Assembly (NCBI RefSeq): GCF_017498085.1
Contig: NZ_JAGBKM010000019.1
Coordinates: forward strand, 1 to 64,000
Length of the DNA stretch: 64,000 bases
Reading direction: 5' to 3'
Origin: Psychrobacter coccoides
Lineage (GTDB): Bacteria; Pseudomonadota; Gammaproteobacteria; Pseudomonadales; Moraxellaceae
The notes below the pieces were generated by a model. The model saw only the letters and a list, made by a program, of their open reading frames with translations. It made no database searches and was not told the origin of the DNA. How positions within the stretch are numbered: position 1 is the stretch's first letter; the number at the start of each line of letters is the position of its first letter. This document shows positions 42,595-64,000 of the stretch, piece by piece. A program made the translations under genes and the position numbers.

Positions 42595-43458
42595 CTAAGT
42601 CACCTTACCACCAACACTACTCAAAAACTGACTGACAGTTTCTGATACATCCAAGAGCATAGGCTCACTAACATCCAGTTGTTTCAATGCTTTTAGGTTA
42701 GTAATACTCTCGGGCAGACTTTGCAGGCCATTTTGATAGAGTCCAAGACTTTTTAATTGCTTTAGGTTGCCTATTGAACTTGGCAGGGTTTTAAGATCAG
42801 AAGCACGTACTTCTAGCTTTTCAAGGTTTGTTAAATTTCCGATACTATCAGGTAAAGCCTTCAAGTCTTCATTAGCATACAGCTCAATACTAGTAAGCTT
42901 GCTGAGATTGCCAATAGCGTCTGGTAGATGCTGTACCTGCGTTCCTCTCATATCAAAATGGGTGAGCGATGATAGATTACCGAGCTCATCAGGAAACTGC
43001 TTTAAGCTTTTTGAAAAGATATTGAGTGATTTAAGGTTTTTTAGTTTACACAACACCTTTGGAAATTCAGTGAAAGAGCAGTTCATATAAACCAGCGTCT
43101 CTAAGTTATCTAGTTGAGCAATCTGTTCTGGTAATTCATTAAAACCTCTTAGTCTAAGATACTTTAGGTTTGTTAAATGGCCGATAGCAGCTGGCAATGG
43201 CTCAGTAGACTCACTTTCGCTTTGTAATACTGGTTTATTATCAATATAACTATAACTCGTCGATTTTCCATATCCCAAATCTAGTCGCTCTAACCGCCGT
43301 AACGCTTCAGGTTCACGAGGGACACTGCTGTCAGAGCTGCCATGTATATTATGGTTGTCAATCCAGTCCCATATCTCCGTCATCCAGTCTTCAACGCACG
43401 TATCTTGATTGCGAATGGTGTTGTCATCTTGGTTGGTTTTATCGCTATATACTGTCAT
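42595..43458 (-). CDS. Leucine-rich repeat protein
   Basis: A 287-aa protein built of at least seven LRRs of 22-24 residues from about 85 to 275, each of the type LPDAIGNLSKLTSIELYAN. The N-terminal ~60 residues are acidic and contain WMTEIWDWIDNHN, and a lead-in LRR (ALRRLERLDLGYG) follows. No signal peptide, membrane span or catalytic domain is seen. Such plant/SDS22-like LRR proteins in bacteria usually mediate protein binding; some are secreted effectors. The lower codon adaptation and IS debris next door suggest an accessory gene. Confidence 0.85.
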   Translation of the reverse strand: MTVYSDKTNQDDNTIRNQDTCVEDWMTEIWDWIDNHNIHGSSDSSVPREPEALRRLERLDLGYGKSTSYSYIDNKPVLQSESESTEPLPAAIGHLTNLKYLRLRGFNELPEQIAQLDNLETLVYMNCSFTEFPKVLCKLKNLKSLNIFSKSLKQFPDELGNLSSLTHFDMRGTQVQHLPDAIGNLSKLTSIELYANEDLKALPDSIGNLTNLEKLEVRASDLKTLPSSIGNLKQLKSLGLYQNGLQSLPESITNLKALKQLDVSEPMLLDVSETVSQFLSSVGGKVT

Positions 43459-47603: not shown

Positions 47604-48974
47604 ATGCGAATTACTCAGTTAATCAATCAGCCTTTTGTACATCCGGATATTGCCCGTGATTTCTCTGACCGTTCGTTTGTGCAAGCGATGTTAGATTTTG
47701 AATTGGCTATTATCGAAGCCAGAGAACATAATAGCCTGATTCCCAAAGGTATTCTACAGCAAACTAAGCAAGCATTAGCGATAGATTTATTTGATATTGA
47801 GGCGATCGGGTCACAAACTTATCTGGGTGGCAATGCGGCTATTCCTTTTGTCGCCCAAGCCAAATCCTTGTTACCTACAGAAATAAAGCCCTATTTTCAT
47901 AAAACAGTCACCAGTCAAGACGTGGTTGATACGGCGATGATGATGATGCTTAAGCCTGCACTAAAGCGTATCAACCAAGACTTAATTGACGTGCTGCAAG
48001 CATGTGCAGCTCTGATAGATGCTCATAGCACGACACCGATGGCGGGTAGGACCTTATTGCAACACGCTTTACCGATTACTTTTGGTGTAAAAGTCTCACA
48101 GTGGGCGGCATCTTTAATCGCTGTAATGCCAAATTTAGCACAATTAGAGCAATCAGGCTTTTATTTGCAATGGGGTGGGCCGGTAGGGGTCAGTGATCAA
48201 GACAACGAGCAGTATGAGCTACCCCAGCAAGTTGCCACACTACTTGGTTTGTCACTGCCATTACTGCCTTGGCATACCAACAGGCAACCGATTCATACGA
48301 TCGCTTCTGCATTAGATGCCTGTGCAGGTGCGATGGAAAATATCGTTGATGATATTGCATTACTGTGCCAGTCTGAATTGGGTGAGGTGGCTGAGCCTGC
48401 GATTAAAGGGATGGGCGGGTCCTCTTCAATGCCTCATAAGCGCAACCCTGTATTGTGTGGCTTAATTAAAACAGCCACCTTAAGAATGCATGGTCATCTG
48501 AGTGTGATAAGCAATACTACCGCCCAACCTTTTGAGCGTGCATTGGGTCAATGGCATGCCAGTTGGGTACCTTTAGCCGAGGGAGTGGCTTTGGTCGCAG
48601 GTGCAGCGGCTTATCTGAAGACTTTGCTACAAGGTCTGCAAGTTTATCCAGAACGCATGGCCGCCAACCTTGATTTAAATAGCGATGCTTATCTTATTGA
48701 GACTTTGCAGCGTTACTTCTTAGACAACCAAGAGCAAGTTTATCCTTTAATAGAGCAAGCCAGCCAAAAGGCGCATAGCGAGCACAACGGGTTTGTGCAG
48801 ACTCTCTTAGCTTTATTAGAAGCACAGTCTGTAGATAGCGATGCCAATAATAATAGTGCTGAGCTTAAAGTTATTCTATCGCCTTTAACCTATAGTGGTG
48901 CTGCAGGTAGCCAGTGCCAAACAATCTTACGAGCCATTGAGAAATTAATTTTGACTTTAAAAGGAGATAAATAG
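47604..48974 (+). CDS. pcaB: 3-carboxy-cis,cis-muconate cycloisomerase
   Basis: PcaB cyclises 3-carboxy-cis,cis-muconate, the protocatechuate ring-cleavage product, to 4-carboxymuconolactone. The 456-aa protein belongs to the fumarase/aspartase superfamily. The family signature GSSSMPHKRNP lies near residue 275, and HKTVTSQDVVDTAMM near 97 supplies another active-site block. MAGRTLLQHALPITFG matches PcaB proteins. It is separated from the main pca operon by more than 6 kb of transporter and accessory genes. It is divergent from the IclR regulator. GGGAG precedes the ATG. Confidence 0.92.
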   Translation: MRITQLINQPFVHPDIARDFSDRSFVQAMLDFELAIIEAREHNSLIPKGILQQTKQALAIDLFDIEAIGSQTYLGGNAAIPFVAQAKSLLPTEIKPYFHKTVTSQDVVDTAMMMMLKPALKRINQDLIDVLQACAALIDAHSTTPMAGRTLLQHALPITFGVKVSQWAASLIAVMPNLAQLEQSGFYLQWGGPVGVSDQDNEQYELPQQVATLLGLSLPLLPWHTNRQPIHTIASALDACAGAMENIVDDIALLCQSELGEVAEPAIKGMGGSSSMPHKRNPVLCGLIKTATLRMHGHLSVISNTTAQPFERALGQWHASWVPLAEGVALVAGAAAYLKTLLQGLQVYPERMAANLDLNSDAYLIETLQRYFLDNQEQVYPLIEQASQKAHSEHNGFVQTLLALLEAQSVDSDANNNSAELKVILSPLTYSGAAGSQCQTILRAIEKLILTLKGDK

Positions 48975-48997: not shown

Positions 48998-49068
48998 ATT
49001 GACAGGAAGATAGAAAAGGGTTACCTTAATTCACTATACGAACAACTATTCTAATGAAGAACAAACAC
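48998..49068 (+). promoter_or_regulatory. Promoter/operator block 1, upstream of dctP1
   Basis: A -35 TTGACA (48999-49004) lies 17 bp before a -10-like TACCTT. It is followed by TTAATTCACTATACGAACAA and a second GAACAAA half-site. The whole ~71 bp is nearly identical, without gaps, to 55430-55500 before pcaF; the 20-base core is exact. Read in reverse, GTTCGTATAGTGAA resembles PcaR/PcaU-type operators. Binding by the nearby IclR protein is inference. Confidence 0.7.
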
Positions 49069-49196
49069 AGCTACCTTTTAATGGTATGGCTGTGCATTTT
49101 CTCAAAGTTGTTTTAAGATCGCCATCAAGCAAGCTGCGTCTGACTTGACACCAGAGCTTTATATTAGAACTATTTTTAATCATCAAAAAGGACTTC

Positions 49197-50255
49197 ATGA
49201 TGAAGAAGACTCTCGCACTTAGTATGGCCTTGGCCACTATGATTGGTATCGCTGGTTGCTCGCAATCAAATGATGCAGTCAGTGATGGTGCTACAGATAC
49301 TCAAGAGACCACTACCTTACGTTTTGCCCATTTTTGGCCAGCAACTTCAGCGACCCATACCGAGGTTTTTGCCCCTTGGGCGCAAAAGATTGAAGAAGAG
49401 TCAGACGGACGGTTAAAAGTTGAAATATTCCCTTCTGCAACCCTCAGTAAAGCCGACGCTGCCTATGACGCAACTTCTAAAGGTATGGTGGATATAGGCT
49501 CGCAGCTGCAAGGCTATACAGCGGGACGTTTTCCATTGACTCAAATCACAGAACTCCCAGGTCTATCTAACTCAGCGACACAAATGAACTGTATGCTACA
49601 GACCTTATATGATGATGGGGTGATATCAAGTGAGTATGAAGATACACACCTACTGTTTATGATGGGAACTGGCCCTGGCGGTATTCATACGGTTGACCAA
49701 CCTATCAACAAACCAGATGATTTGAAAGGCTTGCGCATTCGCCGTCCATCGGCCATCGCTGGTGACATCATTGAAGCGGCAGGCGGCACACCTGTCGGCT
49801 TGCCTGTCACTGATGTATATACGTCACTACAACGTGGTGTGCTTGATGGTTTGAGTCTGCCATGGGATGCCATGGGCTCATTTAAACTGATTGAGCTATC
49901 GAACACTCATACCAACATTCCGTTTTATAGCTCGGCTATCGTGGTCACTATGAACAAGGATAAATATGCAGGGCTGCCAAAGGATCTGCAGCAGGTCATT
50001 GACAATAATTCTGGCAAGATGATGGCGGCGCTTGCTGGTAAAGTGTTCGATGCCGAAGATGATAAGTTTATGGCTGAAGCCCAAGCTAATGGTGATGTGA
50101 TAATAGACATTCCTGATCCATTGAATGATCCTGCTTGGAGAGGCCCATTAGAAGCAGGGACGCAAAAATACTTAAAAGATGTTGAAGCACTTGGATTAGA
50201 TGCGCAAATGGTCTATGAAAAAGCCAAAGAAGCAAGTGCGGCTTGTAAGTCTTAA
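49197..50255 (+). CDS. TRAP transporter solute-binding lipoprotein, DctP family (paralogue 1)
   Basis: A substrate receptor of 352 aa for a tripartite ATP-independent periplasmic transporter. The signal peptide ends in the lipobox IAGC with Cys21, so it is anchored as a lipoprotein rather than free. The DctP fold shows HFWPATSATHTEVFAPWAQK, PSATLSKADAAYD, and the carboxylate-binding Arg in DLKGLRIRRPSAI near residue 180. The C-terminus ends ASAACKS. It is first in a tandem of three similar receptors and lies downstream of operator block 1. An aromatic acid is the likely ligand from context. Confidence 0.9.
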   Translation: MMKKTLALSMALATMIGIAGCSQSNDAVSDGATDTQETTTLRFAHFWPATSATHTEVFAPWAQKIEEESDGRLKVEIFPSATLSKADAAYDATSKGMVDIGSQLQGYTAGRFPLTQITELPGLSNSATQMNCMLQTLYDDGVISSEYEDTHLLFMMGTGPGGIHTVDQPINKPDDLKGLRIRRPSAIAGDIIEAAGGTPVGLPVTDVYTSLQRGVLDGLSLPWDAMGSFKLIELSNTHTNIPFYSSAIVVTMNKDKYAGLPKDLQQVIDNNSGKMMAALAGKVFDAEDDKFMAEAQANGDVIIDIPDPLNDPAWRGPLEAGTQKYLKDVEALGLDAQMVYEKAKEASAACKS

Positions 50256-50306
50256 AGTATGTATAATAAAAATTAGATACAGCTTATTTACAGGGAAGAA
50301 ATAACA

Positions 50307-51356
50307 ATGTCTAATAAATTTAAAACCAGTGCTATGTTTTTATTCGTAGCATTTGCGACGGGTCTTTCAAGTTGTTCAGGTCAGCCTGAAGGGGCGGTTA
50401 AGGAGGACGCTATAATCTTAAGGTTCTCTCATTTTTGGCCTGCTACAGCTGCACTACATAAGGATGTGTTTGAGCCTTGGGCCAGACAGATCGAAGACGA
50501 TTCAGCTGGTAGGCTCAAGGTTGAGATTTATCCTTCAGCGACCTTGAGTAAGCCCGACATCACTTATGACTCAACGGCCAAGGGTACGGTTGATATAGGT
50601 GCTCAGGTTCAAGGCTATATCAGTGGTCGTTTTCCATTGACTGAAATTACTCAGCTTCCGGGTCTGTCAAGCTCAGGCACTCAATTAAGCTGTATGCTAC
50701 AAACCTTGTATAACGATGATGTAATAGCAAGTGAGTATGATGACACGCATCCACTATTTATGATGGCGTCAGGACCTGGCGCTTTCCATACTATTGATAA
50801 GCCTATCCGCAAGCCGGAAGACTTAAAAGGCATGCGTATTCGCCGCCCGTTAGAGATAGCGGCTAATATTATCGAAGCGGCTGGTGGTACCCCTGTTGGG
50901 ATGCCAGCTTCTGATCAATATACGTCTTTGCAGCGCGGCGTCATTGATGGCGTGAGTACGCCTTGGGATGCGGCAGGCGCTTTTAGGTTAGCTGAATTAA
51001 CAAATACGCATACGACCATGCCTTTATATGGCTCGGCTTTGCTTGTGACGATGAATAAAGATAAATACGAAAGCCTGCCTGATGATCTCAAACAAGTCAT
51101 AGATAACCATTCAGGGATGGAGATGGCAAAGACTGCTGGTAATTTATTTGATAGAGAAGATACCAGAGTGATTGCTGAGGCCAAAGCTCGCGGTGATACG
51201 ATGATAGAGATTCCTGATCCATTAAGTGATCCTGCTTGGAGCGGTATACTCAAGACAGAAATCCAAAGCTATTTAGACAATCTTGAAGCTCAAGGGCTAG
51301 ACGCACAAGGTGTCTATGAAAAAGCGCAAGCAGCTAGTGCGGCTTGTAAAGTTTAA
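50307..51356 (+). CDS. TRAP transporter solute-binding lipoprotein, DctP family (paralogue 2)
   Basis: A second receptor of 349 aa, 51 bp after the first. It has its own lipobox LSSC (Cys23). It keeps HFWPATAALHKDVFEPWARQ, the Arg in DLKGMRIRRPLEI, and the ending ASAACKV. In the ligand-lining segments it differs from paralogues 1 and 3: GPGAFHTIDKPIRKP, ASDQYTSLQRGVIDGVSTPWDAAG where the others have GGI/GGL, VTD and LSLPWDAMG. A different ligand preference is therefore likely. No membrane subunit is adjacent. It probably shares the promoter at 48998. Confidence 0.88.
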   Translation: MSNKFKTSAMFLFVAFATGLSSCSGQPEGAVKEDAIILRFSHFWPATAALHKDVFEPWARQIEDDSAGRLKVEIYPSATLSKPDITYDSTAKGTVDIGAQVQGYISGRFPLTEITQLPGLSSSGTQLSCMLQTLYNDDVIASEYDDTHPLFMMASGPGAFHTIDKPIRKPEDLKGMRIRRPLEIAANIIEAAGGTPVGMPASDQYTSLQRGVIDGVSTPWDAAGAFRLAELTNTHTTMPLYGSALLVTMNKDKYESLPDDLKQVIDNHSGMEMAKTAGNLFDREDTRVIAEAKARGDTMIEIPDPLSDPAWSGILKTEIQSYLDNLEAQGLDAQGVYEKAQAASAACKV

Positions 51357-51405
51357 AGTGTAGTAGAGTCCCTAGTCAGAACAGTATTGCTTATTAGGAA
51401 GAGTG

Positions 51406-52098
51406 ATGAAGGGCATTATGGATCAGACTATGAAAGATATTTTTGCCTTAGCAGTGACGCCTGTAGATTATAGCGATGTTGAGTGGAAGGTTCGAGTAGA
51501 GTTAGCACTGTGCTATAGAATGGTTGATTATTAAGGATGGACGACTCAAGTTTATAATCATATTTCATATAGAGCTCCAAGTACAAAGCATCTATTGATT
51601 AATGCGTTTGGACTTTTGTATAGTGCAATTACCCCTTCAAATTTTGTAAAAATAGATTTTGATAGCAATACAGTTGATGACTCATCTTATGCTATTAATA
51701 AAGCTAGTAGTGTTATTCATACGGCCTTGCGTAAGGGTAGAACTGATGTTCACTGCGTCATGCATACCCACAATCCTGATGTTCAAGCAGTAAGTGCGCT
51801 CAAGTGTGGCTTTATGCCCTTATATCAAGAAACTTTTATGTTCTACGATCGTATTGGTTACCATGACTTTGAAAGCATCGTACTGGATGAAAGCGAGCAG
51901 CAAAGACTGGTAGGCTCGCTAGGCCCGACCAATTACACCTTGATGCTTAACAATCATGGAGTTGTTACCACCGGGCCTGATGTGGCTTGGGCATTTATGC
52001 GAATGTACCAAATTATACAAGGCTGTCAGGTTTAGTTAAAAGTCATGGCTTCAGGTGCTGAGGTTAGACTATCTGAGTGGCCGGCGTATTGCTTTTAG
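51406..52098 (+). pseudogene. Class II aldolase/adducin family gene with in-frame stops
   Basis: One reading frame from the ATG at 51406 carries a class II aldolase/adducin domain. A TAA at 51532 interrupts it just before the family's conserved GW. A TAG at 52033 follows, after IIQGCQV and before LKVMASGAEVRL. The metal-site motif HCVMHTHNPD and the late His in LNNHGVVTTGPD are intact. The sequence between is continuous and in phase, so decay looks recent. The family includes sugar-phosphate aldolases and decarboxylases of dihydroxyphthalate (PhtC type). The latter would yield protocatechuate, fitting the locus, but this is speculative. Confidence 0.78.
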
Positions 52099-52360
52099 TG
52101 ACGAAAAAGCTTCAGGTGTAGGTCTCTTCGGTCGCTATATTACCTTTGATGAGTTCAGCACTTACTAGTGGGTGTCGGTACAGACGTAACAACGTCCGTA
52201 TCCAGTTTAAGGAATGTTCTGACGATCTAAGAGAGTTTTAACCATATAAAGTATAAATTTATGGCTCCCATTTACTAGGATGCAATACAAGTTGTGTAAA
52301 TTAAAAGCTACGTCTAACTTTATATTTATAATATTTTACAATCACTAAAAGGAATTTGTG
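52099..52360. other. Decayed stretch before dctP3
   Basis: A further short frame (RRIAFSDEKASGVGLFGRYI, then TFDEFSTY) crosses the end of the aldolase pseudogene at about 52081-52169. It may be the tail of another lost gene that I cannot identify. The rest is AT-rich, with the AAGGA site of dctP3 at the end. Confidence 0.35.
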
Positions 52361-53407
52361 ATGAATAAAACCTTTCCATTAAGTCTAGCATTGGCTACTT
52401 TGATAGGTATGACTGGCTGCTCACAATCAGATAGCACTGCTAATCAAGACTCTCAAGAAGTGACGACATTACGTTTTTCACATTTCTGGCCTGCTAGCTC
52501 AACGACAAATACAGAGATCTTTGAACACTGGGCACAAAAAGTAGAAGAAGACTCTGAAGGCAAAATTAACGTTGAGATATACTCTTCTGCAACACTCAGT
52601 AAGCCAAATGCAACCTATGATGCCGTTGCCAATGGTGTTGTTGATATAGGAGCTACGTTACAAGGATACACCAATGGCCGCTTCCCATTGACACAAATTG
52701 CAGAATTACCAGGACTCTCAAATTCAGCAACACAATTAAATTGTATGCTACACAGTCTGTATGACAATGGGGTAATTTCAAGTGAGTATGAGGATACACA
52801 TGTTTTATTCATGATGGGTACTGGTCCTGGAGGCTTACACACTGTCGATAAACCGATTCGTAAACCAGATGACTTAAAAGGAATGCGTATTCGAGGCCCT
52901 TCAGCTATCACAGGAAATATTATTGAAGCTGCTGGTGGCACACCTGTGGGATTACCCGTGACAGATCTTTATACCTCCCTCCAACGCGGTGTGTTGGACG
53001 GTACAAGCTTACCTTGGGATGCGATGGGCTCGTTTAAGCTAACAGAAATAACAAACACCCATACAAACATACCTTTCTATAGTTCACCAATCATAGTGAC
53101 TATGAACAAGGACAAATATGAAAGTCTGCCAGATGATTTGAAAAAAGTAATTGATGATAATTCAGGTAAAGCTATGGCTGAGATTGCTGGTAAGGTATTC
53201 GATGAAGATGATGCAAGATATATGGCAGCAGCAAAAGCAAAAGGCGATACAATAATAGATATCCCAAACCCATTAAATAATCCAGATTGGAAAAAGCCTT
53301 TAGAAGAAGGTACACAAAGATACCTGCAAGATATCGCAAAGCTGGGATTGGACTCTCAAACCGCTTATCAGAAAACTAAAGAAGCGAGCGCAGCATGTCA
53401 ATCTTAG
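52361..53407 (+). CDS. TRAP transporter solute-binding lipoprotein, DctP family (paralogue 3)
   Basis: A third receptor of 348 aa with lipobox MTGC (Cys20). Residue for residue it is much closer to paralogue 1 than to paralogue 2: MGTGPGG(L/I)HTVD, GTPVGLPVTD(L/V)YTSLQRG and LPWDAMGSFKL are shared. The DNA is visibly more AT-rich than paralogue 1, with A/T-ending codons, so it is either an older duplicate that has drifted or a copy from a relative. The start is the ATG at 52361 with AAGGA upstream. It is separated from the others by the aldolase pseudogene. Confidence 0.88.
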   Translation: MNKTFPLSLALATLIGMTGCSQSDSTANQDSQEVTTLRFSHFWPASSTTNTEIFEHWAQKVEEDSEGKINVEIYSSATLSKPNATYDAVANGVVDIGATLQGYTNGRFPLTQIAELPGLSNSATQLNCMLHSLYDNGVISSEYEDTHVLFMMGTGPGGLHTVDKPIRKPDDLKGMRIRGPSAITGNIIEAAGGTPVGLPVTDLYTSLQRGVLDGTSLPWDAMGSFKLTEITNTHTNIPFYSSPIIVTMNKDKYESLPDDLKKVIDDNSGKAMAEIAGKVFDEDDARYMAAAKAKGDTIIDIPNPLNNPDWKKPLEEGTQRYLQDIAKLGLDSQTAYQKTKEASAACQS

Positions 53408-53470
53408 TAGCTATTTAACTTTTTGCTTAAGTGGTTCGCTTAGTTGGATAGTAGCGTTAATAAAGAGTTC

Positions 53471-53497
53471 ACTCTCCGTATTTTCGATATGGAGAGT
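53471..53497. terminator. Hairpin after dctP3
   Basis: ACTCTCC and GGAGAGT form a perfect 7-bp stem, extended by a GTA/TAT pairing. The loop is TTTTCGA. AATTT follows, so termination is uncertain. Confidence 0.45.
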
Positions 53498-53637
53498 AAT
53501 TTAGGTCATGCTAGTTAAGTAAATGTACTATTCATCATACTGAAATAATTGAAACGTTTTAGACTCTAACCCTTAACATAAACAGTTCTGTCTACATTAA
53601 ACTCGGCAATAAATAATTACTGACAAGGATGTTGTCT

Positions 53638-55245
53638 ATGTCTCTTATTAATCATAAAAATACCGTACAACAAATAACGTTTCGTCTGATGCGTGAACTA
53701 AATATGACTAAGGTATTTGGTAATCCTGGCTCTACTGAGCTTAACTTTTTAAATAATTTTCCTGAAGATTTTGAATATGTGTTGGCTCTACAAGAATCAT
53801 CTGCTGTGGCTATGGCAGATGGTTATGCTCAAGCGTCTGGCAATGCTGCTTTTGTTAATCTGCATTCAGCAGTAGGTGTTGGTCATGCTTTAGGAAACAT
53901 CTTCACTGCATATCGAAATCATACCCCATTAGTCATAACAGCAGGTCAGCAATCACGTAGTATATTACCATTTGCGCCTTACCTTGGAGCAGATCACGCA
54001 GCGGATTTTCCAAAGCCTTATGTTAAATGGAGTATTGAGCCCGCACGCCCCGAAGATGTCCCATTGGCAATAGCTCAAGCCTATCATATTTCTATGCAGC
54101 ATCCACGTGGGCCAACCTTTGTGTCTATACCCTCTGATGATTGGGATAAAACGACACAGATGCCTAATTACTCAAAGGTAATAGAGGGTACTACGCCAAC
54201 TGAAGATGCTATCAACCAATTATTACAAGCGTTAGAAAACAGTCAAAATTTAGCCGTAGTCGTAGGATCGGATGTGGATAGGCAAGGCGCATTTAATACA
54301 GCGGTCAAACTGGCTGAGCGGCTGCAAGCACATGTTTGGGAAGCCCCGTATTCAAGTCGAGCTAGCTTTCCGGAAAACCATCCTCAGTTTGCAGGGTTTC
54401 TTCCAGCTCTTCCTGAGCAACTGTCAAAAAAACTTGCTGATTATGATGTGATTCTTGTAGTTGGTGCACCTGTGTTTACACTGCATATTGCAGGTGAAGT
54501 GGATATATTTGACTCTGAAGTTGAAATTTATCAAATTACTGATGATCCAAAGTATGCGGCATTTTCTTCTGCCACTACCACTTTATTTGGTTCAATAAAT
54601 CACAGTCTTAACGCTGTGCTTGATAAGCTCGCTTCTTTATCTAACTCTCAGAGTGATAGTTTTGCTATACCGATTCGTCCTGCTACTCTAAAAATAACTG
54701 GAAGCACACCTATTCCAGTAGAATATGCCATTGACCTACTAGCTCATGCGAGACCATCTGATTCAGTAATAGTAGAAGAGGCGCCTTCTCACCGCTCTGT
54801 CATCCAGCGTTTTCTACCCATTACAAGGCCTAATAGTTTTTTTACTATGTCAAGTGGAGGTCTTGGGTATGCTCTACCTGCATCAGTCGGAGTAGCTCTA
54901 GCCACTGATAAACGCGTAATATGTGTCATTGGTGATGGCTCGTCTATGTATTCATTTCAAGCAGTTTGGACAGCCGCTCAGTTAAATTTACCTGTGACCT
55001 TTATCGTTCTAAATAACCTTGGATATGGCGCAATGCACTCATTTGGTAAGATTATGAATAGTCAATCTGTACCAGGTCTCGACTTACCTAATATTGATTT
55101 TGTACAGTTAGCTAATAGTATGGGATGTGATGCTGCTCGTATAAAGGAACATGAAAAACTACCGGAAGCGATTAACAAAGCGATTAATACGTCTGGTTGT
55201 TATCTATTAGAAATAATTGTTGATACTAAAGCAGGTGCTATTTGA
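53638..55245 (+). CDS. mdlC: Benzoylformate decarboxylase-like thiamine-diphosphate enzyme
   Basis: At 535 aa it is similar throughout to benzoylformate decarboxylase of the mandelate pathway. FGNPGSTELNFL near 20-31 includes the active-site Ser, LALQESSAVAMADGYAQASG contains the cofactor Glu, and NLHSAVGVGHALG contains the first catalytic His. GDGSSMYSFQAVWTAAQLN with a later NN is the ThDP site. The start is the ATG at 53638, eight bases after AAGGA; an upstream ATG is too close. The DNA is AT-rich like dctP3. Benzoylformate or a ring-hydroxylated relative would give a benzaldehyde, which needs a dehydrogenase not seen here. Confidence 0.85.
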   Translation: MSLINHKNTVQQITFRLMRELNMTKVFGNPGSTELNFLNNFPEDFEYVLALQESSAVAMADGYAQASGNAAFVNLHSAVGVGHALGNIFTAYRNHTPLVITAGQQSRSILPFAPYLGADHAADFPKPYVKWSIEPARPEDVPLAIAQAYHISMQHPRGPTFVSIPSDDWDKTTQMPNYSKVIEGTTPTEDAINQLLQALENSQNLAVVVGSDVDRQGAFNTAVKLAERLQAHVWEAPYSSRASFPENHPQFAGFLPALPEQLSKKLADYDVILVVGAPVFTLHIAGEVDIFDSEVEIYQITDDPKYAAFSSATTTLFGSINHSLNAVLDKLASLSNSQSDSFAIPIRPATLKITGSTPIPVEYAIDLLAHARPSDSVIVEEAPSHRSVIQRFLPITRPNSFFTMSSGGLGYALPASVGVALATDKRVICVIGDGSSMYSFQAVWTAAQLNLPVTFIVLNNLGYGAMHSFGKIMNSQSVPGLDLPNIDFVQLANSMGCDAARIKEHEKLPEAINKAINTSGCYLLEIIVDTKAGAI

Positions 55246-55283
55246 TAAGATTTTAGTTATTTTTAAAATTTAAATAAGAACTA

Positions 55284-55349
55284 AAAGCCTATGATTTTGA
55301 ACTAAAACCAAAATAATTCATTTGGTTGAGTTTGATTTCATAGGTTTTT
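55284..55349 (+). terminator. Long imperfect hairpin after mdlC
   Basis: AAGCCTATGA at one end pairs with TCATAGGTTT at the other, with further pairing AACTAAAACC/GGTTGAGTT inside. It ends in TTTTTA. It is a likely mdlC terminator, shielding the pcaF promoter. Confidence 0.65.
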
Positions 55350-55429
55350 ATTTTATATGCTTAGAATAATATATCTGACCATAATTTTTGTAATTAACAA
55401 AGTAAATATTAAGAAAAAAGGAATTCTAT

Positions 55430-55500
55430 ATTGACAGAAGGTTAGAAAAGGGGTAACTTAATTCACTATACGAACAATAATTCTGATATAGAACAAATCT
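55430..55500 (+). promoter_or_regulatory. Promoter/operator block 2, upstream of pcaF
   Basis: TTGACA (55431-55436), 17-bp spacing, then TAACTT as a -10-like box. The 20-base core TTAATTCACTATACGAACAA is identical to the one before dctP1, and a further AGAACAAA half-site follows. About 140 bases separate it from the pcaF start, so a long leader or additional elements are present. Control by the IclR protein at 46767 is inferred. Confidence 0.7.
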
Positions 55501-55638: not shown

Positions 55639-56850
55639 ATGACAACAGTTTATATTTGTCATCCAAAACGTTCAGCGGTAGCCCGCTATGGTGGTGCTTT
55701 AGCTGATATTCGTCCAGATGACCTGCTAGCGCAAGTCATTAAGTCTGTATTAGCAGAGGCCCCTAAGTTTGACCATAGTGCGATTGAAGATGTGTTTATG
55801 GGCTGTGCCAACCAAAGTGGTGAAGACAATCGCAACGTTGCTCGTATGAGCAGCCTGTTATCTGGTTTAACAGAGCAAGTACCAGCTACAACCATAAACC
55901 GTTTGTGTGGTTCTGGGTTAGATGCAGTTGGCACGGCTTTTCGTGCAATCGCCAGTGGTGAGATGGAGTTGGCTTTGGCGGGCGGTGTTGAGTCGATGAC
56001 ACGTGCGCCTTTTGTCATGGGCAAGCCAGAAAAATCCTATGATCGTAGTCAGAAGTTGCAAGACACCACCATGGGCTGGCGCTTTATTAACAAAAAGCTT
56101 GATGAGATGTATGGCACAGAAGCGATGCCACGTACCGCAGAGAATCTAGCCGAAAAATACAATATATCACGTGAAGATCAAGATGCTTTTGCCGTTTGGT
56201 CGCAACAAAAAGCTGCTCAAGCTCAAAATGACGGTCGTCTAAATGCAGAGATCACTCCTATTACTATCGAGAGGCGTAAGCAAGAGCCACTCGTCGTAGA
56301 TAAAGATGAGCACCCACGTCCGAATACTGATATGGCGGCCCTAACAAAGCTAAGGCCTATCTATGAGAATGGCACGATCACCGCAGGTAATGCTTCAGGT
56401 ATTAATGATGGTGCTGCGGCGATGTTAGTCGCTAGCGCCGCTGCAGTAAAAAAGTATGGTTTAACGCCTGTGGCAAAAATCGAAGGGATGGCAACGGCTG
56501 GGGTTTTGCCAACGATCATGGGTATCGGACCTGTACCTGCCACCCAGAAGTTATTGAAGCGGCTCAATCTTAGCTTGGATGATGTTGATATTATCGAGCT
56601 TAATGAAGCTTTTGCTGCCCAAGCATTGGCTTGCTCACGTGAGTTGGGACTTGATGATCATGACGAGCGCATTAACCCTAGAGGTGGTGCTATTGCTTTG
56701 GGTCATCCGCTTGGAGCGTCAGGTGCTCGTATCTTAATTTCTGCCATCTATGAATTACAACATAGTAAAAAGGATCGAGCGCTCTGTACCATGTGTATCG
56801 GGGTTGGGCAGGGAATTGCTTTGGTCGTTTCAAGAGTAGGAGAAGAGTAA
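55639..56850 (+). CDS. pcaF: 3-oxoadipyl-CoA thiolase
   Basis: PcaF cleaves 3-oxoadipyl-CoA into succinyl-CoA and acetyl-CoA, the last step of the beta-ketoadipate pathway. The 403 aa cover the whole thiolase fold. The nucleophile Cys is in NRLCGSGLDAV near 91, the His in GGAIALGHPLGASGAR near 355, and the second Cys in CTMCIGVGQGIALV near 388. It is the first gene of the pcaF-DC-H-G-pobA-I-J run. Its TAA shares one base with the pcaDC ATG (TAATG). Confidence 0.95.
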   Translation: MTTVYICHPKRSAVARYGGALADIRPDDLLAQVIKSVLAEAPKFDHSAIEDVFMGCANQSGEDNRNVARMSSLLSGLTEQVPATTINRLCGSGLDAVGTAFRAIASGEMELALAGGVESMTRAPFVMGKPEKSYDRSQKLQDTTMGWRFINKKLDEMYGTEAMPRTAENLAEKYNISREDQDAFAVWSQQKAAQAQNDGRLNAEITPITIERRKQEPLVVDKDEHPRPNTDMAALTKLRPIYENGTITAGNASGINDGAAAMLVASAAAVKKYGLTPVAKIEGMATAGVLPTIMGIGPVPATQKLLKRLNLSLDDVDIIELNEAFAAQALACSRELGLDDHDERINPRGGAIALGHPLGASGARILISAIYELQHSKKDRALCTMCIGVGQGIALVVSRVGEE

Positions 56851-58022
56851 TGGCATTTTTGACAACAGACGCCCATCTTATTGGGTATCAAGACAGTGGT
56901 GAAACTTATTTACCCGCTTTATTTATGGCGCATCCGTTAGGCATGAGCCGTGATGTATGGGATGAAGTCTGTGATGCGCTACATGGGCATTATCGTTGTG
57001 TGCGCTGGGATCTACCGGGACACGGTAGTAGCGGCGCTGCGGCAGAGGGACTGAACGCTGAGATATTGGCTCAGGACGTCCTTACTTTGGCTGACACTTT
57101 AGACATTGATAGCTTTCATTTTATCGGTACCTCAATCGGCGGTGTCATTGGTCAAAGCTTGTGCCAGATAGCGCCTGAGCGCCTACAGCAAGTTTGGCTG
57201 ACCAGTACCGGTGCGGTAATCGGCACCAAAGAAGCATGGGCTGAGCGTGCGGACAATGTGCGTCGCTTGGGCTTGGCTGAAATGGCGGAAGCCATTGTAC
57301 CGCGCTGGTTCTCACCAAGTTATGTCGAGCAGAATCCTGATGTATTACAAGGCTGGCAAGTACAATTGTCACGCAGCGATGATGAAAGCTATGCCAAGCT
57401 TTGTGAAGCATTAGCAGAGGTCGATAATCGCGGAAAGCTAGCGGATTATGCTAATGGTGTGGCATTGATAGCGGGTGCAGATGATGTCTCAACGCCTGTC
57501 ACTGCTTTAGAGTCACTGAAAGCTGAATTTACTGATGCCAGCTTAAGCGTCTTTGCAGGGGTAGGTCATGTGCCATCGGTTGAGGCGCCAAGCCTATTGG
57601 TTAAGCACCTTCAAGCCAATGCAGCTCGGACGGCTGTGGGTGAAACGGGTATCAGATATGAGCAAGGGTTGGTGCAGCGTAAGCGAATTTTAGGAGAGGC
57701 ACATGTTGAAAGAGCCTCTAAAAATGCGACCACATTAGACAATCCTTTTCAGCAGTTTATCACCCGTAATGCTTGGGGCGAGTTGTGGGGAGATCCAAGT
57801 CTCACGGTACAACAGCGTAGTATGATTACCACAGGCATATTAGCGGCGCTTGGGCGTGATGGAGAGCTGAGTTTGCATCTGCGTACCGCAAAGCGTCTAG
57901 GCATCAATGAAGATCAGCTGCGTCAAGTCTTAATGCATGTGGCTATTTATGCTGGTGTACCAGCAGCAAATCATGCTTTTTCTATGGCTAAAGATAATGG
58001 CTGGGGCCATGAAATTTCTTAA
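56850..58022 (+). CDS. pcaL: Fused 3-oxoadipate enol-lactonase / 4-carboxymuconolactone decarboxylase
   Basis: This bifunctional protein of 390 aa carries out two consecutive steps. Residues 1-255 are an alpha/beta hydrolase of PcaD type (MAHPLGMSRDVWDEV, nucleophile Ser in FIGTSIGGVIGQ near 93, late His in FAGVGHVPSVEAP). Residues 265-390 are a carboxymuconolactone decarboxylase of PcaC type (RYEQGLVQRKRILGEAHV, RSMITTGILAALGR, with His in LMHVAIYAGVPAANHAF). PcaD-PcaC fusions (PcaL) are known mainly from actinobacteria. Acinetobacter keeps the genes apart. The start is the ATG at 56850; a longer frame from 56793 lies inside pcaF. Confidence 0.92.
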   Translation: MAFLTTDAHLIGYQDSGETYLPALFMAHPLGMSRDVWDEVCDALHGHYRCVRWDLPGHGSSGAAAEGLNAEILAQDVLTLADTLDIDSFHFIGTSIGGVIGQSLCQIAPERLQQVWLTSTGAVIGTKEAWAERADNVRRLGLAEMAEAIVPRWFSPSYVEQNPDVLQGWQVQLSRSDDESYAKLCEALAEVDNRGKLADYANGVALIAGADDVSTPVTALESLKAEFTDASLSVFAGVGHVPSVEAPSLLVKHLQANAARTAVGETGIRYEQGLVQRKRILGEAHVERASKNATTLDNPFQQFITRNAWGELWGDPSLTVQQRSMITTGILAALGRDGELSLHLRTAKRLGINEDQLRQVLMHVAIYAGVPAANHAFSMAKDNGWGHEIS

Positions 58023-58085
58023 TATTCAAGCTATTAAGTGCACTATTTATATAAGTTATGCTTGAAAAGAATGGAGAAAATTATA

Positions 58086-58814
58086 ATGAGTCAAAAGTAT
58101 CCTTATTTTATTGCTCGTGATCGAGCATGGCAACCGGCACAATATACCCCGCGTTACAAAACCTCAGTGTCTCGTTCACCGCGCCAAGCTCTGGTCAGTA
58201 TTCAAAATGCCAGCCCTTCTGAGCGCAGCGGTCCTGTTTTTGATGGTTTAGAGCTTGGTCAATACGACAATGATTTGTTGATGAACTTTCGTACCGAAGG
58301 GTCTGCAGCAGGCATGCCTGTTGGGGAACGCATTATTATGCATGGGCGTGTGATTGATCAGTTCGGTAAGCCTGTGCCCAATACCTTAGTTGAGATGTGG
58401 CAGGCAAACGCTGGTGGTAAATACCGCCACAAAAAAGATGGCTATTTGGCTGCGTTAGACCCGAGCTTTGGTGGTGTTGGTCGTTGCATTACCGATGCAG
58501 ATGGTCGTTATCGCTTTCGCACAGTCCGCCCAGGTCCTTACCCTTGGCCTAATGACATCAATACTTGGCGCCCAGCACATATTCACGTATCGGTCATGGG
58601 GCCTTCGATCTCAACACGTTTGATCACCCAAATGTACTTTGAAGGCGATCCGCTTATTCCGCTGTGCCCTATCGTACAAGTATTAAAAGATCCAGACGCC
58701 GTTGAAACCATGATTGCACGCTTAGATATGGCCATGAGTAAACCCATGGACTGCTTAGCATATCGTTTTGATATTGTCGTTCGCGGCGCATTACAAACCT
58801 ATTTTGAGGAGTAA
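58086..58814 (+). CDS. pcaH: Protocatechuate 3,4-dioxygenase beta subunit
   Basis: This iron(III)-carrying subunit splits protocatechuate between its two hydroxyls, giving 3-carboxy-cis,cis-muconate. The protein has 242 aa from the ATG at 58086, after GGAGA. The iron ligands lie in [17 protein letters not shown] (Tyr) and [12 protein letters not shown] (two His), with a further Tyr earlier in the GGKYRHK region. The beta-subunit N-terminal segment ([19 protein letters not shown]) is present. It is three bases from pcaG, whose ribosome site GAGGAG lies in the pcaH 3' end. Confidence 0.95.
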
Positions 58815-58817
58815 AAC

Positions 58818-59441
58818 ATGTATAGCCAATACAAATTACAAGATGAAACGGGTTTATTGCGCGAAACAGCATCGCAAACGGCAGGGCCTTTTGTACATAT
58901 CGGCTTGGCGTTAGAGATTGCTGGTTTTGAATCACGAGCAGATGAGATCTGGCAGGATTTGGCCAAAGAAGGCGCCGAAGGTGAGCATATTGAGTTGGTT
59001 GGTCGGGTGTATGACGGCAATGGCGACTTGGTGCGTGATGCCTTAATTGAAATCTGGCAAGCTGATAGTCAAGGCAACTATATTGCCAACTTTGATAATA
59101 AACAACCGTTTAGTGGCTTTGGGCGTAGCGCCTGTGCAGTAGACGGTGATTTTCATTTTAATACCATCAAACCTGGGCAAGTAGATTTTGATGGTAAGCC
59201 AATGGCGCCGCATATCAATATCGCTGTGTTTGCCCGTGGTATCAATATCCATCTACAAACCAGAGCCTATTTCGATGACGAACAAGCGGCTAATGATGAC
59301 TGCCCAATCTTGAATGGTATTCCATCGGATGTACGCCGTCAGACCTTAATAGCAGTCAAAGAAGCAGGCGAGGGTAAGCCACGTTATCGTTTTGATATCT
59401 ATCTACAAGGCGAGGGCGAGACGGTATTCTTCGACTTTTAA
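58818..59441 (+). CDS. pcaG: Protocatechuate 3,4-dioxygenase alpha subunit
   Basis: This is the structural partner of PcaH; alpha and beta form the oligomeric enzyme. The 207-aa protein begins with the typical ETASQTAGPFVHIGLALEIAG. It keeps the intradiol fold (LIEIWQADSQGNY; FNTIKPGQVDF; APHINIAVFARGINIH). The Tyr/His iron ligands of the beta subunit are only partly retained, as expected for alpha subunits. It directly follows pcaH and precedes pobA by 57 bp. Confidence 0.94.
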   Translation: MYSQYKLQDETGLLRETASQTAGPFVHIGLALEIAGFESRADEIWQDLAKEGAEGEHIELVGRVYDGNGDLVRDALIEIWQADSQGNYIANFDNKQPFSGFGRSACAVDGDFHFNTIKPGQVDFDGKPMAPHINIAVFARGINIHLQTRAYFDDEQAANDDCPILNGIPSDVRRQTLIAVKEAGEGKPRYRFDIYLQGEGETVFFDF

Positions 59442-59465
59442 CATCATATATTTCATAGATACTAA

Positions 59466-60686
<1,221 letters not shown>

Positions 60687-60731
60687 GGCATTCAGACTCA
60701 GATTTTTGCTTCTTTTTTATAGGACAAGTCA

Positions 60732-61403
60732 ATGTTAAACAAAATAACAAAATCTGCGACCGAAGCCATCAGCAATATTCATGATGGTGCCACCATCTTG
60801 ATAGGTGGCTTTGGTTTGGCAGGACAGCCAGCAGAGCTGATAGATGCTCTGATTGAGCGTAATGCAAAAGACCTAACGATAGTTAATAATAATGCAGGTA
60901 ACGGTGATACTGGGCTTGCGGCACTGCTAAAAGCAGGTTGCGTGCGTAAGATCATCTGCTCTTTTCCACGTCAGCACGACTCATATATCTTTGATGATCT
61001 CTACCGAGCAGGCAAGATTGAGCTGGAAGTAGTGCCACAAGGTACTTTGGCTGCCCGTATTCAAGCAGGTGGTAGTGGCCTTGGTGCGATTTATACCCCG
61101 ACAGCTTATGGAACCTTACTTGCTGAAGGCAAAGAGACGCGCACCATTGATGGTGTCAACTATGTATTGGAATATCCTATCAAAGGCGATTTTGCGCTTA
61201 TTAAAGCACTAAAAGGCGATCGCTGGGGTAACCTGATTTATAACAAAGCTGCCCGCAACTTTGGGCCTATTATGGCCGCAGCTTCCAGTCATACCATTGC
61301 GCAAGTCAGCGAAGTGGTGGAGCTCGGTGCTTTAGATCCTGAGCATATCGTCACCCCAGGTATTTTCGTTCATGAAGTCGTTCACATTGGAGCAAAAGCA
61401 TGA
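60732..61403 (+). CDS. pcaI: 3-oxoadipate CoA-transferase subunit A
   Basis: It transfers CoA from succinyl-CoA to 3-oxoadipate together with PcaJ. The 223-aa protein has the subunit A glycine-rich loop IGGFGLAGQPAELIDAL near 22-38, VNNNAGNGDTGLA, and GGSGLGAIYTPTAYGT. It overlaps pcaJ by four bases (ATGA), so the subunits are translated together. PcaIJ and the related CatIJ or ScoAB cannot be fully separated by eye. The operon makes PcaIJ the right name. Confidence 0.93.
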   Translation: MLNKITKSATEAISNIHDGATILIGGFGLAGQPAELIDALIERNAKDLTIVNNNAGNGDTGLAALLKAGCVRKIICSFPRQHDSYIFDDLYRAGKIELEVVPQGTLAARIQAGGSGLGAIYTPTAYGTLLAEGKETRTIDGVNYVLEYPIKGDFALIKALKGDRWGNLIYNKAARNFGPIMAAASSHTIAQVSEVVELGALDPEHIVTPGIFVHEVVHIGAKA

Positions 61404-62053
61404 TAACTAACTATACACCATGGTCCGTAGATGAGATCGCCCGCCGCGTTGCAGAGGATATTGAAGAGGGTATGTACGTCAATTTAGGTATTGGCCAACC
61501 CACGAAAGTTGCTGATTTTTTGCCAGATGATAAAGATATCTTTTTGCACAGTGAGAATGGGGTCTTGGGCATGGGCCCTGAACCTGCTGAGGGTAAAGAG
61601 GACGGCGATTTAATCAATGCTGGTAAACAATATATCACCTTGCTAGAAGGTGGTAGTTATTTCCATCATGGTGATTCTTTTGCGATGATTCGCGGTGGGC
61701 ATATTGACTTATGTGTACTAGGTGCCTTTGAAGTCGCTGAAAATGGCGATATTGCCAACTGGTTTTTGGGTCGACCACAAGATATTCCCGCAGTAGGCGG
61801 GGCGATGGACTTAGCGGTTGGTGCCAAAGAAGTCTATGTGATGATGGATCATGTCAGCAAAAATGGTGAGCCTAAAATTGTTGAAAATCTTAAGCTGCCT
61901 ATCACGGGTGAAAAATGCGTCAATCGCATCTACACTGATCTGGCAGTGATTAATGTCACTGATAAAGGCTTGGCCGTACGCGAAATTATCGATGGCTTAA
62001 CTTTTGAGGAGCTGCAAGCTAAAACAGGCGCTAAATTAATCAACAACACGTAA
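61400..62053 (+). CDS. pcaJ: 3-oxoadipate CoA-transferase subunit B
   Basis: The catalytic B subunit of 217 aa. The active-site Glu lies in FLHSENGVLGMGPEP near 52, the standard SENG motif. GIGQPTKVADFLPDD and DLCVLGAFEVAENGDIANW are family blocks. It is coupled to pcaI by an ATGA overlap. It is the last catabolic gene before the TRAP membrane subunits, which begin about 220 bp downstream. Confidence 0.93.
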   Translation: MITNYTPWSVDEIARRVAEDIEEGMYVNLGIGQPTKVADFLPDDKDIFLHSENGVLGMGPEPAEGKEDGDLINAGKQYITLLEGGSYFHHGDSFAMIRGGHIDLCVLGAFEVAENGDIANWFLGRPQDIPAVGGAMDLAVGAKEVYVMMDHVSKNGEPKIVENLKLPITGEKCVNRIYTDLAVINVTDKGLAVREIIDGLTFEELQAKTGAKLINNT

Positions 62054-62271: not shown

Positions 62272-62799
62272 ATGATACTTTTAACCAAACTCAGCACCCT
62301 CATCTCCAGGCTGTGTCAGTTTATCGGCGGCATCAGCCTAGTGATCATCGTCCTCGTCACCATCCTTGACGTCGGCGCCCGCTACATCTTCAAACTCACC
62401 GGCGGCGACATGGGCTTCACCGTCAAAGGCAGCGTCGAGATCGTCTCCTACTTCATGCTCTTCGCCCTACTGGCCGCCTTTGCCGCCTATGTCGAGCGCT
62501 CACAAATCATCGTCGACGTCTTCACCCAAAAGATGCCCAAAGCCATCAAAGGCTACATGATGGGCATCTTCATGATGGGCTTCTTCTTTATCGGCCTCGT
62601 CTTCACCTGGGGGTTATACGAAAGCGCCCTAGACGCCATCGAATTTGGCAAAGTCACCCAAGACCTCAGACTCTCCATGATGCCCATCTACCTGATCAGC
62701 GCAGCACTCAGCCTACTACTGGCCATCCGCTCACTCATCGAATCCATCAACATCTTTAGAACAGGCGAATTCTTTGACGCCGAGGAGGCAGGCGCATGA
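62272..62799 (+). CDS. dctQ: TRAP transporter small membrane subunit DctQ
   Basis: A four-helix membrane protein of 175 aa that bridges receptor and DctM in a TRAP transporter. Hydrophobic segments are seen at about 15-37, 57-75, 95-120 and 138-155. VTILDVGARYIFKLTGG and the SVEIVSYFMLF block fit DctQ. The gene overlaps dctM by four bases (ATGA). Codon use is strikingly C-rich at third positions (ATC, GTC, GCC, CTC), unlike pcaJ just upstream, which suggests transfer from a GC-richer relative. It probably works with one or more of the three DctP lipoproteins. Confidence 0.88.
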   Translation: MILLTKLSTLISRLCQFIGGISLVIIVLVTILDVGARYIFKLTGGDMGFTVKGSVEIVSYFMLFALLAAFAAYVERSQIIVDVFTQKMPKAIKGYMMGIFMMGFFFIGLVFTWGLYESALDAIEFGKVTQDLRLSMMPIYLISAALSLLLAIRSLIESINIFRTGEFFDAEEAGA

Positions 62800-64000
62800 G
62801 CCCAGAAATAATCGGAGCCATCGGCTTACTCATCATGATCATACTGGTCGTCGTCAGAGTCCCCGTCGCCCTCGCCATGCTCGGCGTCGGCCTCGTCGGC
62901 TTTGGCGCCGTCACCAGCTCAGACGGGGCCCTACAAATGCTCAAAGACCTCCCAGTCGACGTCTTAGCCAAGTATGACTTCAGCGCCATCCCACTATTCA
63001 TTTTAATGGGCGTCTTTGCCACCCACTCAGGCATGGCCGCCAAACTCTTTGACGCCACCCGCACCATCTTTGGCGGCGTCAGAGGCAGTCTTGGCATCGC
63101 CGGCATCGGATCCTCAGGCATCTTCGCCTCCATCTCAGGCTCCTCCCTTGCCACCGCCTCCACCATGACCCGTGTCGCCTTACCGCAAATGGAGAAATAC
63201 GGCTACAAACCCGGCTTTGCCTGCGGCATCCTCGCCGCTGGTGGTACCCTTGGCATCATGATCCCGCCCAGCATCGCCTTACTGGTCTACGCCATCCTCA
63301 CCGAACAATCAGTCGGTGACATGTTTATCGCCGGCTTTCTGCCTGGCATCCTTGGCATGGTCATGTACTCCTTGACCGTCATGATCATGGTACGCTGGAA
63401 ACCGCACCTCGCCCCGCGCGGCGAGAAGACCCCCTGGAAAGACAAACTGCTGTCCCTAACCGGACTCATCCCCTTTGGCTTTATCTTTGTTCTGATCATT
63501 GCCGGTATCTTCTTTGGCCTGTTTACCCCAACCGAAGGGGCCGCTGTCGGTGCCTTTGCCTCTTGGGCGTATGCTGCTGCCAAAGGCATGCGTATGAGAG
63601 GACTGAAACAGTCACTGATTGAGACCCTAGCTCTGTCTGCTGTGGTGTTCTTTATGCTACTGGGTGCTGAAGCTTTAGGCTACTTTATCTCAGTCTCCAG
63701 ACTGTCTTATTCGTTAGCCACTTGGATTGGTGGTTTGGCCGTCAGTCCGATGATCGTTCTGCTGGCCATCTTGCTGATGTACTTCCTGCTTGGTCTGTTT
63801 ATGGATGCGCTCGCCATGTTGGTGATTACCATTCCAGTGGTGTTCCCCATCATTCTAGCCTTGGGCTTTGATCCGATCTGGTTTGGTATCATTGCGGTAC
63901 TTACGGTAGAGCTGGGTCTGATCACGCCGCCGATGGGGATGAATATCTTTGTGATTAAGGCGGTGGCACCGCATATTAAGCTGTCGGAGATGTTTAGGGG
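62796..64000 (+). CDS. dctM: TRAP transporter large membrane subunit DctM (cut by window end)
   Basis: The transport channel of the TRAP system. 401 codons are present and the frame is open at 64000; DctM proteins are usually about 425-430 aa, so little is missing. Many hydrophobic segments are seen. GIFASISGSSLATASTM, YGYKPGFACGILAAGGTLGIMIPPS and FGLFTPTEGAAVGAFA are conserved DctM blocks. It is coupled to dctQ by ATGA. Codon style changes inside the gene. Up to roughly 63500 it is C-ending and GC-rich like dctQ. After that it returns to the mixed AT-leaning style of neighbours, pointing to a recombination joint. Confidence 0.9.
   Translation, partial: MSPEIIGAIGLLIMIILVVVRVPVALAMLGVGLVGFGAVTSSDGALQMLKDLPVDVLAKYDFSAIPLFILMGVFATHSGMAAKLFDATRTIFGGVRGSLGIAGIGSSGIFASISGSSLATASTMTRVALPQMEKYGYKPGFACGILAAGGTLGIMIPPSIALLVYAILTEQSVGDMFIAGFLPGILGMVMYSLTVMIMVRWKPHLAPRGEKTPWKDKLLSLTGLIPFGFIFVLIIAGIFFGLFTPTEGAAVGAFASWAYAAAKGMRMRGLKQSLIETLALSAVVFFMLLGAEALGYFISVSRLSYSLATWIGGLAVSPMIVLLAILLMYFLLGLFMDALAMLVITIPVVFPIILALGFDPIWFGIIAVLTVELGLITPPMGMNIFVIKAVAPHIKLSEMFR

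Follow-up and report, generated by a model that had tools for sequence, protein, structure and literature searches.

Our analysis of a 64,000-nucleotide stretch of Psychrobacter coccoides DNA, referred to here as the window, identifies two similar sequence blocks that are very probably orthodox promoter-operator units of a single regulon under an IclR-family regulator of the PcaR/PcaU type, a judgement that covers the regulon and not the sign of its regulation. The element itself, its conservation, its genomic confinement and its co-occurrence with pcaH and pcaR were computed directly. PcaR/PcaU regulons are an established type; what differs here is the inclusion of TRAP receptors and a promoter geometry unlike the Acinetobacter model, and our literature search turned up no publication that deals with this regulon in Psychrobacter. 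What the analysis yields is a precisely defined and testable operator for the catabolism of aromatic acids in Psychrobacter, together with the prediction that a single regulator induces the TRAP receptors along with the ring-cleavage pathway.

Over 68 bp the two blocks (48998-49065 and 55430-55497) form a gapless alignment with 85% identity, and an exact core of 21 nt, CTTAATTCACTATACGAACAA, is common to both. An earlier note on this DNA had described a gapless alignment of about 71 bp with an exact core of 20 bases, and while the absence of gaps and the exactness of the core both hold, the two lengths required correction, as similarity stops at 68 bp. A whole-genome search of the 3.05-Mb Psychrobacter genome returned these two blocks only, the second at E = 4e-16. 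Block 1 is flanked by pcaB on one side and dctP1-dctP2 on the other. Block 2 stands ahead of pcaF, the fused pcaDC, pcaH, pcaG, pobA, pcaI, pcaJ, dctQ and dctM. The gene order that the note had given after each block is recovered here (Table 1); dctP2 is followed by a class II aldolase gene that is broken, by dctP3 and by a gene resembling benzoylformate decarboxylase. The note's reading of a TTGACA box, a 17-bp spacer and a -10-like box in each block was likewise reproduced, and its cautious label is fair, because TACCTT and TAACTT fit TATAAT at only three of six positions.

Table 1. Coordinates in the window of the predicted regulatory elements and the genes around them.
Feature	Position	Strand	Basis or remark
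pcaR, IclR-family regulator, PcaR/PcaU/PobR subfamily, 262 aa	46767..47555	-	TIGR02431; HTH_IclR, IclR_C
pcaB	47604..48974	+	divergent from pcaR; without operator copy upstream
Inferred promoter 1: TTGACA 48999-49004, 17-bp spacer, TACCTT 49022-49027	48999..49027	+	sequence; TTGACA in 49/50 copies
Operator 1 (predicted): tandem palindromes TTCACTATACGAAC 49030-49043 and TTCTAATGAAGAAC 49049-49062, centres 19 bp apart	49030..49062	+	profile 48.4 bits
dctP1, TRAP solute receptor, first gene past block 1	49197..50255	+	NF037995
dctP2, TRAP solute receptor	50307..51356	+	NF037995
Class II aldolase-family pseudogene remnant	51595..52035	+	broken gene 51407-52035; intact, 259 aa, in most relatives
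dctP3, TRAP solute receptor	52358..53407	+	NF037995; without a block of its own
Benzoylformate decarboxylase-like ThDP enzyme	53629..55245	+	NF005485 724 bits, cut-off 493
Inferred promoter 2: TTGACA 55431-55436, 17-bp spacer, TAACTT 55454-55459	55431..55459	+	sequence; TTGACA in 49/50 copies
Operator 2 (predicted): tandem palindromes TTCACTATACGAAC 55462-55475 and TTCTGATATAGAAC 55481-55494	55462..55494	+	profile 50.7 bits
pcaF-pcaDC(fused)-pcaH-pcaG-pobA-pcaI-pcaJ operon	55639..62053	+	
dctQ and dctM, TRAP membrane subunits	62272..64000	+	Pfam DctQ; TIGR00786; dctM cut by contig end

The anatomy of the block becomes sharper when 50 copies from Psychrobacter genomes are compared. Counting from the first TTC, the conserved stretch covers -32 to +35; beyond these limits it gives way abruptly to background, and the flanks are not conserved. 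TTGACA is present in all but one of the copies, and the hexamer 17 bp after it keeps its T, A and final T. The operator follows the pattern TTC-N7-GAAC, 5 bp, TTC-N7-GAAC, which amounts to two palindromes with centres 19 bp apart; its TTC and GAAC columns are near-invariant, and the further TTC and GAAC boxes at the 19-bp period, near-invariant as well, mark the presence of external half-sites. The published PcaU consensus is TTTGTTCGATWATCGMACAMA, to which a half-site must be added for binding, and tandem palindromes 18-22 bp apart have been described in 94 orthologous groups of IclR regulators (PMC8222616), so that the layout of the blocks is standard for the family. The core half-site TTGTTCG matches the PcaU consensus exactly and the spacing of GTTCG-N5-YGAAY is identical to it, with a degenerate second half (TGAAT). 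In half-site and spacing these are, by sequence, PcaU-type operators, in agreement with the resemblance to PcaR/PcaU sites that the earlier note had seen in the core. Two less specific searches contributed little: the bare three-box pattern is weak by itself, giving two forward matches against two for the reversed control, and a generic promoter scan, which found fewer promoter-like sites than in shuffles and failed to pick up either block owing to the poor match of their -10 boxes, was not counted as evidence. In the promoter spacers (49005-49021 and 55437-55453, and in relatives) an A-tract and a G are conserved at about 90% among the 50 copies, a level not usually seen in the spacers of sigma-70 promoters.

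Were transcription to start near position 0, the palindromes would become part of the 5' UTR, where the element could act as RNA, in the form of leader hairpins or a riboswitch, and not as DNA. We rejected this reading as very improbable, as no Rfam family matches the element and its paired arms, only 3-5 bp long, show no covariation; the TTC and GAA columns hardly vary, and the pattern fits known DNA operators of IclR regulators.

The distribution of the block among 105 Psychrobacter genomes ties it closely to protocatechuate catabolism genes. Some 50 copies are spread over 22 of the genomes; exactly these 22 have pcaH, all but one of them (21) also have a high-scoring PcaR, and none of the three was found in the other 83. 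Fisher values for the co-occurrence (p = 4e-23 and 3e-21) ignore relatedness and genetic linkage and are read only as a near-perfect match of distributions, and the three-way co-occurrence is itself partly due to linkage in one cluster. With an operator-only profile built from the 50 copies, all matches of at least 32.3 bits across the 105 genomes (~330 Mb) fell inside pca clusters, the best site elsewhere reaching 20.8 bits, and in the 22 genomes the next recognised gene after the block was pcaF or a dctP in all copies but one.

These results bear directly on the proposal that the blocks are a recent duplication or a dispersed repeat devoid of regulatory meaning, to which we assign almost no probability. 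In its favour, the two copies in the window are paralogs of each other and the block has undergone local duplication (L057, 6764-6921). Against it, particular columns are near-invariant while the flanks are unconserved, and corresponding blocks of the window and a related genome (G016) are 93% identical, against 85% for the two blocks inside the window. Across species, block copies pair up according to the genes around them, so their duplication predates the split of these two species. The earlier note had allowed that the blocks might be merely a dispersed repeat and had named a motif search in related genomes as a check; since every copy found sits in a pca cluster, and the genome under study holds just two, that possibility is now excluded. 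Two loci record local events of this kind. At L057 the two tandem copies are 99 bp apart and lie upstream of pcaF, and at L072 (1415-1796) an extra block precedes a dctP3-like gene beside a short pcaR remnant, a vestige of an old duplication that involved the regulatory region.

The regulator encoded divergently from pcaB is assigned from its protein sequence to the PcaR/PcaU/PobR subfamily of IclR regulators. It scores 291.8 bits on TIGR02431 (curated cut-off 284.75), contains PF09339 (HTH_IclR) and PF01614 (IclR_C), keeps the recognition-helix arginines at PobR positions 56, 60 and 61, and is about 35% identical to the Acinetobacter PcaU-type regulator. The nearest named loci that code for such a protein all belong to Psychrobacter. 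The genome encodes six TIGR02431-like proteins, which raises the alternative that one of the five weaker paralogs reads the blocks. This is highly improbable: the weaker paralogs fall below the family cut-off, and homologs with similar scores are common in pca-negative genomes, which lack the block. These candidates were rejected, as PcaR alone follows the block's distribution. The suggestion in the earlier note that this IclR protein is the partner of the blocks thus gains from its score, from its being the only such protein above the cut-off in the genome, and from its distribution, and we predict with high confidence that PcaR binds both blocks.

The geometry of the block suggests how such binding may act on transcription, a point on which the earlier note was silent. 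Downstream of a sigma-70 promoter (TTGACA, 17 bp, TAnnnT), the two tandem palindromes (TTC-N7-GAAC, 19 bp apart) would occupy about +1 to +35 and could hold two PcaR dimers or a tetramer. Most likely, PcaR seated on the start region would keep transcription off until it binds a ligand, either an aromatic acid or an intermediate of the pathway, with 4-hydroxybenzoate, protocatechuate and beta-ketoadipate as candidates. Ligand binding would then release the pcaF-pcaDC-pcaHG-pobA-pcaIJ-dctQM operon and the dctP receptor operon jointly, so that uptake and breakdown would be induced in step. The operator lies downstream of TTGACA-N17-TAnnnT, at and after the inferred start site, and not upstream as in activation of the PcaU/PobR type. 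In 14 copies the start codon, placed from protein alignments, follows only 18-34 bp past the block, so that no promoter would fit between the operator and the gene. This position suggests that PcaR represses, unlike PcaU and PobR at their upstream sites in Acinetobacter. A PcaR-type regulator bound at the operator would cover the start site, and we regard repression rather than activation as the probable mode of control, ligand-relieved repression being the simplest reading and a reasonably likely one.

The main rival keeps the same regulon but has PcaR activate transcription, or both activate and repress it, from a site that overlaps the core promoter or lies just downstream of it. PcaU and PobR, which belong to the same family, activate transcription or combine activation with repression (PMC4213383). 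The weak -10 hexamer in the window's species could suit an activator, and the unusually conserved A-tract and G of the spacer hint at protein contacts there. Guo and Houghton are said to have found in 1999 that PcaR of Pseudomonas putida, a member of the same subfamily, acts from sites on the -35 and -10 elements, with both activation and repression (cited in PMC8222616); the Psychrobacter operator instead lies past the -10 box. We nevertheless consider activation unlikely, although it is far from negligible. The -35 box matches the consensus in 49 of the 50 copies, and the operator is wholly downstream of the -10 box, whereas the PcaU sites of Acinetobacter lie ~170-200 bp before the pcaI start codon. 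One further genome (G042, locus L060) carries the best-scoring operator of all and an intact pca operon, which adjoins vanA/vanB-like (vanillate demethylase-like) and GntR genes, and no PcaR ortholog was found in its assembly; under obligate activation this operon would be silent. The locus is a natural experiment on whether PcaR represses or activates.

Comparison with characterised systems places the proposed repression by PcaR in context. The PcaU-pcaI operator of Acinetobacter baylyi ADP1 and its relatives serves a regulator of the same IclR family that controls a pca operon, and it consists of a GTTCG-N5-CGAAC palindrome with one or more further half-sites. All four half-sites are kept in Psychrobacter, at a period of 19 bp and not the 20 bp of Acinetobacter. 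The Acinetobacter-type operator is located between the divergent pcaU and pcaI genes, in contrast to the position downstream of the -10 box in Psychrobacter, and pobA there has its own PobR, whereas one Psychrobacter regulator appears to serve pca, pobA and the TRAP receptors. As pobA is inside the pca operon, this single protein appears to do the work of both PcaU and PobR. TtgV-type IclR regulators, whose tandem-palindrome operators are bound by tetramers, provide a second likeness in their two palindromes with centres 18-22 bp apart; TtgV controls efflux pumps, and the likeness is one of layout, with no relationship of operator sequence claimed.

The earlier note had proposed that uptake and breakdown form one regulon. 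As a prediction this is well supported, but it is incomplete, because pcaB, which encodes a required step, has no operator copy in any relative. In the 48-bp gap between pcaR and pcaB, none was found at either gene in 22 loci, which show only an unconserved single half-site, so the pathway does not lie wholly within the regulon as drawn. The note had also placed receptor and membrane-subunit genes at different loci; the dctP and dctQM genes belong to one cluster, ~9-13 kb apart. No terminator-like site was found between pcaJ and dctQ. DctP1, DctP2 and DctP3 are all members of the DctP family (NF037995), and the nearest solved chains are 7nsw, 7nrr, 7nr2 and 5i5p. The 7n-series structures we take to be aromatic-acid (TarP) receptors, and the three proteins are predicted to capture aromatic acids. 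The genome encodes seven TRAP receptors of this family, and no block precedes the four outside the window. In Rhodopseudomonas palustris, the TarPQM TRAP transporter has a receptor for aromatic acids that is likewise encoded beside aromatic catabolism genes (PMC3610893). Psychrobacter differs in having several predicted receptors per one dctQM and in their sharing the catabolic operator.

The membrane module itself shows an unusual pattern of evolution. We compared dctQM from the window (62272-64000) with L137, L138 and L139, and with loci L141-L155 of G016, G065 and G090. In the window's genome (G000), a 1.72-kb dctQM sequence recurs with 99.8-100% identity at the ends of contigs C4, C11 and C38 and at the start of C28, and its presence at four contig edges implies at least three copies; the end of the window, which is the end of C11, is an assembly break at this repeat. 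Copies within G016, G065 and G090 are 98.9-99.9% identical, against 74-93% between species, so that dctQM is near-identical within four of six multi-copy genomes (G000, G016, G065 and G090), while the copies of G006 and G049 are not homogenised (76% and 79%). The receptors beside second dctQM copies are mostly orthologous across species (77-97%), which indicates that the copies are old and have since been homogenised. These comparisons point to a shared TRAP membrane module that evolves in concert through gene conversion while adjacent receptors diverge, and the homogenised dctQM allows a direct test of whether one membrane unit serves several TRAP receptors.

Taken across the Moraxellaceae, we tentatively propose, at somewhat less than even probability, that PcaR/PcaU switched from an upstream activator, as in Acinetobacter with its separate PobR, to a promoter-occluding repressor in Psychrobacter, with the regulon redrawn over varying, diverging TRAP receptors that feed a dctQM module homogenised by gene conversion. 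The comparison with Acinetobacter would offer a clean case of how a regulator family may change sign by shifting its site relative to the promoter. Elsewhere in the window, a 287-aa leucine-rich-repeat protein is encoded at 42595-43458 on the reverse strand and matches LRR families only.
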